64,000 nucleotides of DNA from Sulfurimonas lithotrophica (GTDB taxonomy: Bacteria; Campylobacterota; Campylobacteria; Campylobacterales; Sulfurimonadaceae). The notes below the pieces were generated by a model, which saw only the letters and a list, made by a program, of their open reading frames with translations, had not been told where the DNA came from and ran no database searches. Position 1 is the stretch's first letter. Each line of letters starts with the position of its first letter. The position numbers and the translations under genes are program-made. Positions 2,818-59,261 of this stretch are shown here, one piece after another. The DNA lies in contig NZ_CP043617.1 in assembly GCF_009258225.1 (NCBI RefSeq), positions 1,488,001 to 1,552,000 on the forward strand. Reading direction: 5' to 3'.

Positions 2818-2886
2818 ATTTAACATTTGAGTTGAGAAATATTTGAGCCGCATGGTCAAATATTTCTCTCCAATGTTTTGTTATGT
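2818..2886 (-). mobile_element. attC-like recombination site of cassette A
   Basis: Read on the minus strand: left box ACATAAC, whose TAA is the stop codon of the upstream gene; inner left box TTGGAG; a perfect 13-bp stem (GAGAAATATTTGA and its complement, 2834-2846/2856-2868) around a 9-nt loop; inner right box CTCAA; spacer CTCAAAT; right box GTTAAAT, an exact fit to GTTRRRY. TTGGAG pairs with CTCAA only if one G is left unpaired, the extrahelical base that marks the recombinogenic attC strand. There is no T tract, so it is not an ordinary terminator. The predicted crossover is after G at 2824. Confidence 0.8.
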
Positions 2887-4239
2887 ATCTTCAGTCGCTT
2901 CAGTTTTTTTCTTTTTAAAATCAGGCAAATATTCTAGTAAAGATGTTTTAACTTTATATTCGTAGTCTTCGCCTATTTCATTTTTTAAATGGCTTTTCAG
3001 CAAATCCATTTTAAGTTTTGTTCTCAAGTCAAATTTGTCTTTTTCATCAAGCTCTAATCCAATAATTGATTTTTCAGCAACATCTTTAGCAATAATTCCA
3101 ATTTTTGTAAATATTCTTTTTTGCTTATGTATATGAATGATATTTTTAATAAATATTTTTGAAATTTCATAAGAAACAAATAGAATGGATAAGACTATAA
3201 TTACGAATGGAACTCTACTCCAGAATACTGATGATATTTCAATATTTTCTTTCGTCTCAAATACAGTTGTCAAATCAGAAGCACCAAAAAATACAATTAA
3301 AGATACTAAAGCAATTGTAACCCAAGGTATTATTGATAGTTTTGTATATAACAAAATGTCTTTATTCCCTTGCTCAATATATTCTTTCATCTCTGTTGCA
3401 AATATATTTGTATCTTCTGTTAATTTTTTCAATTCATCATTTTGATTGGATATTTTTAAATTTAGTTGATTTGATGTTTCATTTAGCTGTTGGATATTAT
3501 TTTCGAGATTTGTATTTTCTGTAGTTAACGATTCTTTTTTAACTGTAAGTTGATTTGTATCATTTTCTAAGGAAGTTTTAGAATCTGTTAAAGTAGATAT
3601 TTCATCTTCTAATGTACTTATGTCATTGTTTAATGAATCTATAGTCTCTTTTTTAGTATTAATAAGTTCATTTTTTTCAATTAACTTGTCTTCTAGCTCT
3701 CTATTTTTATTTTCTATATCATCTGACAAAGTTTGTAAAGATAATTTAGAATTTTCTAGTTCTTTTACTTTATCTTTAATTGATTCTAAGTCGTTAAGCT
3801 TAAATCCAACTATCTCAATATGAGTAAGTTTTATTTTATTTATTAGTCTTTTTGGTGCTTTGATTTTAAATTCATTGAGTACTTTTTTAGGTAACCAAAC
3901 TTTATGCTCTTTATTTGTAAAGGTTATTGTAGAACTATTGTTTTTATAATCTATAGCTACAATTTCTAAATCTTTTAAATTTACATCATCTTCTGTTTTA
4001 AAAATAACTTTTTGGATATATATTGGTTCTGTAAACTTAAAACTATAATATTTATTTTTTAATTGATATGAAAAATCTTCAATATCTTTAATTAAATTCA
4101 TAATTTGCCCAGATTGGTTTTCAATGACTTCAATATCTAATACATAAGGGTTTATTTCATCATAATTTTCAATATCTTGTTTTATTTCATTTAGTTTATC
4201 TTCTAGCATATTTAAATATTCCTTTTTTATTTTATACAT
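2881..4239 (-). CDS. Coiled-coil, two-TM protein of unknown function (cassette A cargo)
   Basis: Not recognised as a named family. An N-terminal mixed region (1-140) is followed by a long Leu/Asn/Glu/Lys-rich coiled coil (about 145-290), two hydrophobic helices (about 302-320 and 343-361) and a charged C-terminal tail of about 85 residues. This suggests a membrane-anchored oligomer with a long cytoplasmic stalk. The start is uncertain: ATG at 4239 has no ribosome site, while ATG at 4209 (residue 11) has AAAAAAGGAA upstream and may be the real one. The stop codon lies inside an attC-like site and a TATATAATGT promoter element sits just upstream, so the gene is the cargo of a single integron cassette (about 2824-4241). 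Composition is very AT-rich. Confidence 0.8.
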   Translation of the reverse strand: MYKIKKEYLNMLEDKLNEIKQDIENYDEINPYVLDIEVIENQSGQIMNLIKDIEDFSYQLKNKYYSFKFTEPIYIQKVIFKTEDDVNLKDLEIVAIDYKNNSSTITFTNKEHKVWLPKKVLNEFKIKAPKRLINKIKLTHIEIVGFKLNDLESIKDKVKELENSKLSLQTLSDDIENKNRELEDKLIEKNELINTKKETIDSLNNDISTLEDEISTLTDSKTSLENDTNQLTVKKESLTTENTNLENNIQQLNETSNQLNLKISNQNDELKKLTEDTNIFATEMKEYIEQGNKDILLYTKLSIIPWVTIALVSLIVFFGASDLTTVFETKENIEISSVFWSRVPFVIIVLSILFVSYEISKIFIKNIIHIHKQKRIFTKIGIIAKDVAEKSIIGLELDEKDKFDLRTKLKMDLLKSHLKNEIGEDYEYKVKTSLLEYLPDFKKKKTEATEDT

Positions 4240-4265
4240 AACTATTTATTCAAACACATTATATA
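4240..4265 (-). promoter_or_regulatory. Cassette-insertion/promoter element, copy A
   Basis: Minus strand: TATATAATGT, 5 nt, AATAAATAGTT. The -10 TATAAT is at 4263-4258. The terminal GTT gives a predicted crossover between G4242 and TT, immediately before the first ATG of the cassette gene. The same element precedes the other two attC-terminated cassettes (15216 and 58189). Confidence 0.7.
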
Positions 4266-4336
4266 CAGAATAACCTAAAAAAACAAAAATAACTTACACA
4301 TAAATGTTTGTTAAGTTCAAGAAAGCGTACTAATTG

Positions 4337-4612
4337 TTAGTATACTTCATCATGAGAACCTATCTCCACTGGAATGATTTCTTTTTTTGTGAAGATTAGT
4401 TCAAGTGTTATTCTATAACTGATATTAATTGAAACAGAATGAAGATCTGAAAGTTTTCCGGACAGCTTGTGCAATCTCAAAGAAGGATGATGAGGATTTA
4501 CCTCTAAAAGTTTAATAGTTTTCTCATACTGAGAAAGCACCTCTGGATGTTTCTTTATAAACTTTCGTAAACGTTTTTCATATTGCTCTGTAAAGATTAG
4601 CTTATAGGTCAT
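4337..4612 (-). CDS. RelE/StbE-family type II toxin (predicted mRNA interferase)
   Basis: 91 residues from ATG 4612 (MTYKLIF). It has the compact RelE/ParE fold signature: basic N-terminal helices (YEKRLRKFIKKHP), then a strand-rich half with LRLHKLSGKL, SYRITLEL and a C-terminal GSHDEVY. In this family the toxin cleaves mRNA on the ribosome and is held inactive by its antitoxin. The start overlaps the last 11 nt of the antitoxin gene, giving translational coupling in the usual antitoxin-first order. An in-frame upstream start at 4636 would lie well inside the antitoxin gene and is less likely. The stop TAA falls in a TAACAATTAG context resembling the left half of an attC site. Confidence 0.85.
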   Translation of the reverse strand: MTYKLIFTEQYEKRLRKFIKKHPEVLSQYEKTIKLLEVNPHHPSLRLHKLSGKLSDLHSVSINISYRITLELIFTKKEIIPVEIGSHDEVY

Positions 4613-4856
4613 TATGAAGTGCCTTGATATGCTCATCAGCAGTCATAGTTTTTGCTTTTCCTTCTTCAATCTCTTTACGTGTCTCAATCAGTGCGGCTTC
4701 AAGTTCACACTCTCTAAGATAGTTATAATGTTCAAGATCCATCACAACATATTTAGATTTACCACGTACACTTATAATTGCTTCATTATCTAACTTTAGC
4801 GCTTCATCTAGTATTGTCACACCACGAGTTTTAAGATCATTTGCCATAATAGTCAT
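4602..4856 (-). CDS. Phd/YefM-family antitoxin
   Basis: 84-residue antitoxin of the Phd/YefM type. The N-terminal half (VTILDEAL, then SVRGKSKYVVMDLEHYNYLRE) is the DNA-binding dimer fold of this family; the acidic C-terminal half (TRKEIEEGKAKTMTADEHIKAL) is the flexible toxin-binding part. ATG 4856 is chosen because AAAAGGA lies 7 nt upstream; a second in-frame ATG is at 4847. It is expected to neutralise the overlapping toxin and, with it, repress their shared promoter, which carries a palindrome over its -10. Confidence 0.87.
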   Translation of the reverse strand: MTIMANDLKTRGVTILDEALKLDNEAIISVRGKSKYVVMDLEHYNYLRECELEAALIETRKEIEEGKAKTMTADEHIKALHNDL

Positions 4857-58092: not shown

Positions 58093-58188
58093 GCTTTTTC
58101 TTTCTCCATTACACCTTCTATTTTCTAATAAATAATTTAAAATAATTTTTTCTGTTTTCTTCTATTTAGCTATTTTCAAGTTAATCTA

Positions 58189-58215
58189 TATATAATGTTC
58201 GTTGAATAAATAGTT
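58189..58215 (+). promoter_or_regulatory. Cassette-insertion/promoter element, copy C
   Basis: TATATAATGT, 6 nt, AATAAATAGTT; TATAAT at 58191-58196. Shares TTGAATAAATAGTT with copy A. Predicted crossover is between G58213 and TT. Element is followed within 20 nt by the AAGGAG site of the cassette gene. Confidence 0.7.
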
Positions 58216-58233
58216 CATATAAGGAGTATCTAA

Positions 58234-59190
58234 ATGGGATGGAAAGGTACAGTTCGCACATTAGGTGCAATGCATCGAGCAAGTGTGCGAGAAGCAGAAC
58301 GACGAGAAAGAGAAATTCAAAAACGCAATAAAGAACTTCAAAAACTTGAAGCGTTGGAGCAAGCAGCCTATGAGGTTGAAGAGTACGAGAATTATATTGA
58401 AACAATTTTGTCAGTTCATAAAAAACATACCGATTTAATCGATTGGAATGCTATTGCACAATCGACTAAACCATCTCAGCCTACTCAAAAATATCAAAAT
58501 GAAGAACAATTTAAAGTAGGTTTTTTTAGCAAGTTGCTGGGGAAAGAAGAACAACAACGAGAACAAGCAAAACTAAAAGATGAACAAATATATCAAAAAG
58601 AAATGGATGGGTGGAAAGAAAAATGTTCAGAATGGGAGTATGAACACCATCTTGCAAACAAACTTTTATCTGGAGACTTGGAAGTTAAATTAGAAATCAT
58701 AAAAGAACTAAATCCTTTTAGTGATATTCAAGAACTTGGAAGTTCATTAAAATTTGAAATCAGCGAAAGTCATATTCTGGAAGCTACATTAAACTTACAT
58801 GGGCAAGATGTAATTCCAATGGAAAAAAAAGCATTACTCCAAAGTGGAAAGCTATCAGTTAAAAAAATGCCAAAAGGTGAATTTTATGAAATGTATCAAG
58901 ATTATGTTTGCAGTTGTATGTTAAGAGTCGGAAACGAACTATTAGCAATTTTACCTGATGAACTTGTTTTAGTTCATGCTATCGATAATATGCTTAATTC
59001 AAAAACGGGTCATATGGAAGAACAATGTATCCTATCTATCGCAGTATCAAGACAAACTATTGAGTCCCTGAATATGGATTTGATTGATCCATCAGATTCA
59101 TTTGAAAACTTTGTATACAACATGAAATTCAAAAAGACAAAAGGGTTTGAGGTTGTAGAACCACTATTGGCTTCGAGCTTCAATAACTGA
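58234..59190 (+). CDS. Unrecognised protein, cargo of cassette C
   Basis: 318 residues, soluble. An Arg/Glu-rich helix or coiled coil (about 14-60; REAERREREIQKRNKELQ) is followed by a variable Gln/Glu-rich stretch (80-140) and a folded C-terminal half (150-315) with LEVKLEIIKELNPFSDIQELGS-type regular pattern and ILPDELVLVHAIDN. No known domain identified. Strong AAGGAG ribosome site. Flanked by a promoter/insertion element and an attC-like site. Codon use and AT content fit an acquired gene. Confidence 0.78.
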   Translation: MGWKGTVRTLGAMHRASVREAERREREIQKRNKELQKLEALEQAAYEVEEYENYIETILSVHKKHTDLIDWNAIAQSTKPSQPTQKYQNEEQFKVGFFSKLLGKEEQQREQAKLKDEQIYQKEMDGWKEKCSEWEYEHHLANKLLSGDLEVKLEIIKELNPFSDIQELGSSLKFEISESHILEATLNLHGQDVIPMEKKALLQSGKLSVKKMPKGEFYEMYQDYVCSCMLRVGNELLAILPDELVLVHAIDNMLNSKTGHMEEQCILSIAVSRQTIESLNMDLIDPSDSFENFVYNMKFKKTKGFEVVEPLLASSFNN

Positions 59191-59192
59191 GA

Positions 59193-59261
59193 TGCCAACA
59201 AATCAGTGGAGCCAATAAATTACCCTACGGGCAATTTATCGGCTCATTTTAAACGTTATAA
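59193..59261 (+). mobile_element. attC-like recombination site of cassette C
   Basis: Left box GCCAAC just after the stop, inner left TGGAG against inner right CTCAT region (GAGCC/GGCTC stem) with one extra G on the left arm, stem GAGCCAATAAATTACCC against GGGCAATTTATCGGCTC (15 of 17 paired) around TAC, spacer TTTAAAC and right box GTTATAA. Right box fits GTTRRRY imperfectly. Predicted crossover is after G59255. Confidence 0.72.

Follow-up and report, generated by a model that had tools for sequence, protein, structure and literature searches.

A probable integron lacking its integrase gene in the chromosome of Sulfurimonas lithotrophica

Background

The stretch of the S. lithotrophica chromosome analysed here, referred to as the window (64,000 nucleotides), contains between acrB and ackA a minus-strand gene that ends in a hairpin resembling the recombination site of an integron cassette. 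Is this gene a genuine integron cassette, and how would a lone cassette have come to stand there? Of three origins proposed for attC sites found without an integrase, one is loss of the integrase gene, intI (PMC8618304). Such loci are easily passed over: few good descriptions exist of attI outside class 1, searches do not look for it, and single attC sites fall under the default report threshold of two (PMC9024848). From this point on, the attI block, cassette and attC site described below will be referred to as unit A.

Results

The attC site of unit A occupies positions 2818..2886 on the minus strand, with a left box ACATAAC (2886-2880), a hairpin, and a right box GTTAAAT (2824-2818). An earlier sequence-only reading of this DNA had claimed an attC site at the end of a minus-strand ORF, with the stop codon inside ACATAAC and GTTAAAT as the right box, and all of these positions were recovered. 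To score the site independently, we built a covariance model (R1) from 18 attC sites in the integrase-adjacent array DNA of other members of the genus, with the window excluded. In these training sites, 91.5% of cells are paired, against at most 44% when the alignment is slid, and 34 cells are changed on both sides of the stem, against 15 in shuffles. R1 assigns the site of unit A 80.5 bits (E = 5.3e-14), the top match in the 2.4 Mb genome, and the site is near-identical to attC sites of the genus that lie in intI arrays. Folded as a single strand it reaches -15.2 kcal/mol, compared with -4.1 +/- 1.7 for shuffled sequences (z = -6.4), and none of 200 shuffles equals it. Two of the checks that the sequence-only reading had proposed, model scoring and single-strand folding, uphold the site, and rejection by a covariance model, which would have counted against it, did not occur. 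That reading's description of the stem has to be amended, since a perfect 13-bp stem and a single unpaired G (TTGGAG:CTCAA) make use of the same CTC and are mutually exclusive; the hairpin itself stands, with about three extrahelical bases in the left arm in either pairing register. Paired R and L boxes, extrahelical bases and a hairpin are all present. Immediately before GTT the site has a T in place of the C of the array sites used. Rfam returns no match at the site.

Cassette A itself extends over 2824..4241 on the minus strand, 1418 bp from crossover to crossover (G|TT), so that the last six bases of the right box GTTAAAT belong to target DNA and lie outside the cassette. It starts with G|TTATGT (4242-4236), exactly complementary to its own left box ACATAAC, which matches the expectation for a cassette closing into a circle. 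This TTRRRY-like 5' end is followed by a single ORF. As listed, that ORF spans 4239-2881 and encodes 452 aa from the ATG at 4239; a start at 4209 is likelier, as both close homologues begin there, giving a coding sequence at 2881..4209 on the minus strand and a protein of 442 aa.

The encoded protein has an N-terminal beta domain, a coiled coil, two transmembrane segments and a helical C-terminus. Conservation among homologues is found in the beta-rich N-terminal domain, in the two transmembrane segments with the motif SYEISK.FI, and in the helical C-terminal part. Against a homologue of 82% identity, dN is 0.096 and dS is 0.58 (dN/dS about 0.16), as judged from which the protein is under purifying selection. 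Searches of Pfam, NCBIfam, PHROGs and PADLOC place it in no family apart from coiled-coil similarity, which agrees with the earlier description of a family-less two-transmembrane coiled-coil protein carried by a cassette, and searches of plasmid and viral collections return no homologue. A structure model is poor (mean pLDDT 61). Foldseek matches of the N-terminal domain to discoidin/CBM32-like folds are weak, none falling below E = 0.001, and offer a hint only.

Homologues of cassette A are rare. Within the genus, only one other sampled genome has the gene, a Sulfurimonas metagenome-assembled genome (82%; locus L034), where there is neither an attI site detectable by the model described below (R2) nor an attC site at the gene end. 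A relative of 52% identity occurs on a short contig labelled Crocinitomix, and one of 36% in another family of the same order (G321). The gene is thus missing from all sampled relatives in the genus but one, and the synteny with shared flanks that would have spoken against a cassette is not seen. In the closest sampled relative (G015), the interval between acrB and ackA holds three other genes and no attI. No clean empty site was found at this locus among 135 genomes, the nearest being the one that holds other genes. Unit A's attI block is immediately preceded, at 4337-4856 on the minus strand, by a gene pair resembling a YafQ/RelE toxin and a Phd/YefM antitoxin, which is missing from the corresponding interval of G015.

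A query made of the joined flanks revealed that the roughly 80 bp just upstream of cassette A recur widely across the genus, with several copies in a genome. In relatives that possess an integrase, the same block separates intI from the first cassette and is found some 200-280 bp from the start of intI. In the aligned copies, the right end coincides with the crossover AATAG|TT, and about 20 bp before it is a conserved TATAAT. A sequence model of this block (R2), trained on intI-linked as well as solo loci from other genomes, matches unit A at 4240..4319 on the minus strand with 60 bits (E = 6e-16 in this genome); the match ends at the crossover G|TT and includes the promoter-like TATAAT box. 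By its sequence, the block reads as attI, carrying a probable cassette promoter. A scan with the sigma-70 consensus found two sites where 3.1 are expected, which is no better than chance, and lends the promoter no support. The sequence-only reading was right that the cassette is genuine and missed the attI block that belongs to it; the cassette appears as the sole one of an integron without intI. We also considered a 76-bp mobile unit with fixed ends as the source of the repeats and rejected it, since the left ends are not constant and several copies continue into intI.

Unit A is one of four such units in the genome. R2 finds four clear attI copies (unit A, 60 bits; C, 37.6; D, 30.6; B, 25), and these pair one to one with the four best attC matches, in the same orientation and 0.8-1.7 kb apart, an arrangement for which a simple calculation gives a chance of about 1e-11. 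Unit B also lies in the window, on the plus strand and 3' of ileS, with its attI block at 58130..58215 (E = 5e-5 in the genome) and its cassette at 58214..59261, comprising an ORF of 318 aa (58234-59190) and an attC site at 59193-59261 (R1, 36.5 bits, E = 4e-4 in the genome). The 318-aa ORF matches phrog_38135 (E = 8e-45). In five relatives, this side of ileS harbours intI. The remaining units lie outside the window: unit C (L144 1505-2418; C1:1408504 in the genome) carries a gene-less cassette and then an SH3-domain protein, and unit D (L145 1593-3336; C1:1337092) a gene-less cassette and then a 455-aa protein with predicted transmembrane segments. The gene-less first cassettes of units C and D, about 172 bp each, are 93% identical.

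No protein of this genome exceeds the cut-off of TIGR02249, the integron integrase model. The best tyrosine recombinases, of 280-287 aa, are Xer-like, lack the IntI-specific region, and reach 62.7 bits against a cut-off of 265. An integrase match above the cut-off occurs in 47 of 120 genomes of the genus. We counted 166 attI copies in 76 of these 120 genomes, at least 123 of them without an intI of their own, and intI was not detected in 36 of the 76, all such counts being rough because draft genomes are included and the genus search uses stricter filters. Sixty attI loci, nearly all without intI, were fetched and their flanks compared by protein searches. On the left side, the intI leader is kept to varying length, with homology ending anywhere from 50 to more than 280 bp. 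Pieces of intI are retained in G056, G032 and G051 and at unit D, where a 3' relic of 23 codons (aa 293-315) lies at L145:1382-1450; those in G056 and G032 reveal internal deletions. The varying leaders, the intI pieces and the position of unit B at the ileS-side home of intI together indicate that solo units are best read as integrons that lost intI. Unit A retains neither an intI relic nor any leader past about 80 bp, so that loss of intI at this particular locus would follow by analogy with the others. When the DNA upstream of attI is compared between L146 and L162, the leader of L146 looks as though it collapsed between two TAACACACA repeats. Such a collapse may be the reason that several solo attI copies have short leaders.

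Downstream of attI at the 60 loci, attC matches of at least 19.5 bits are all oriented with attI, once opposite-strand hairpin echoes are removed. In G091, an intI-linked and a solo attI carry gene-less first cassettes that are 94.8% identical, whereas the attI blocks are only 70% and the leaders 52% alike; the same holds in G115 for gene-less first cassettes at different loci, again with diverged attI and leader (94.7% against 73.8%). G011 and G093 share an intI-less locus, where the flanks are homologous and the attI sequences 87% identical but the cassettes differ, and both have intI elsewhere. Near-identical cassettes at diverged attI sites suggest, by sequence comparison, that one integrase serves several sites in trans, although duplication of a locus followed by fast divergence of attI, or gene conversion, may also produce this pattern. 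GC-rich gene-less cassettes stand first after attI in L127, L128, L133, L135, L140, L146 and L149; they fall into three sequence types, occur in several species, match no Rfam family, and may act as terminator, promoter or regulator. An FMN riboswitch (RF00050, 122 bits) was noted at L149 5621-5764 on the plus strand, near a cassette array of G070.

Discussion

Taken together, the attC site, the exact cassette ends, the attI block, the absence of intI, the presence of four units and the intI relics beside some of them make it highly probable that unit A is an integron without its integrase gene, consisting of attI with a probable cassette promoter, one cassette and one attC. An IntI, acting in cis or in trans, would once have inserted cassette A by recombining attI with attC, the crossover falling between G and TT, and the TATAAT box in attI would drive the promoterless cassette gene. 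Loss of intI would then have frozen the cassette in place, probably still expressed. The gene probably encodes a coiled-coil protein that is anchored in the membrane and binds a ligand through its beta domain; this protein may be an accessory of defence that targets DNA.

Cassette A stands alone and distant from any intI, as it would if an integrase had put it off target into an ordinary chromosomal site (attG), with nothing but a local promoter upstream. Off-target insertion is a named route to attC sites without an integrase (PMC8618304). This explanation is nevertheless very improbable here, given that the 80 bp upstream match the attI block of the genus at E = 6e-16, a block that adjoins intI in relatives and also precedes the other three cassettes of this same genome. 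Hardly more credible is the proposal that the block is no recombination site at all, but a MITE-like mobile promoter element that spreads with or without cassettes. The block is indeed multi-copy and dispersed, and some copies have no recognisable attC downstream. Its left end, however, is not fixed, the homology at times entering intI, while its right end is always the G|TT crossover, and most copies adjoin cassettes.

As to function, the sequence-only reading had noted that membrane proteins with large coiled coils occur in phage defence. We regard a role for the cassette A protein as accessory or effector of an anti-phage system linked to DNA-targeting restriction as possible but doubtful; it is compatible with the integron reading of unit A. 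The best hint is the 36% homologue in G321, which forms part of a type I restriction-modification operon, flanked by a DUF1016/YhcG nuclease and by hsdM (order hsdR - nuclease - homologue - hsdM), and makes a defence role plausible by its context; homologues also adjoin toxin-antitoxin genes in L034 and L035. Set against this, there is one such operon only, no defence family in PADLOC, Pfam or NCBIfam is matched outside the coiled coil (the PADLOC matches being confined to it, at no more than 15-20 bits), and viral and plasmid collections hold no relatives.

Unit A resembles the CALIN and single-attC elements of IntegronFinder, having an attC and a cassette with no intI nearby or in the genome, but differs in its recognisable upstream attI block; with one attC it also falls outside the default CALIN definition of at least two attC sites without intI. 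With the chromosomal integrons of the genus, which have the order intI-attI-array and are adjacent to ileS in five sampled genomes, this genome shares the attI block, the attC family and, for unit B, the ileS-side locus. It differs in lacking intI and in having four scattered platforms of one or two cassettes rather than one array. Retention of attI and cassettes is likewise seen in class 1 integrons whose intI1 is deleted or truncated and in class 2 integrons with defective intI2, and an IntI elsewhere can act on them in trans. In both cases, attI and cassettes outlast intI, although those are single plasmid or transposon loci, whereas here several chromosomal copies per genome occur across the genus. 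We found no paper on such multi-copy attI platforms in this genus, and no description of the attI of this group, among the open-licence papers searched.

Conclusions

The shared cassettes in G091, in G115 and between units C and D, and the differing cassettes at one locus in G011 and G093, lead us to propose a 'distributed integron', in which one integrase would serve scattered attI-promoter platforms in trans, each with its own first cassette, and genomes losing intI would keep the platforms as fixed expression sites. We hold this to be a serious prospect, at somewhat less than an even chance. Integron searches go by integrase and attC clusters, and single-cassette attI platforms without an integrase escape them; the attI and attC models supplied here cover this group. 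If one integrase does serve many attI sites, every site would give a first, promoter-near position, which would relax the known constraint that expression within a single array is largely restricted to its first cassettes.
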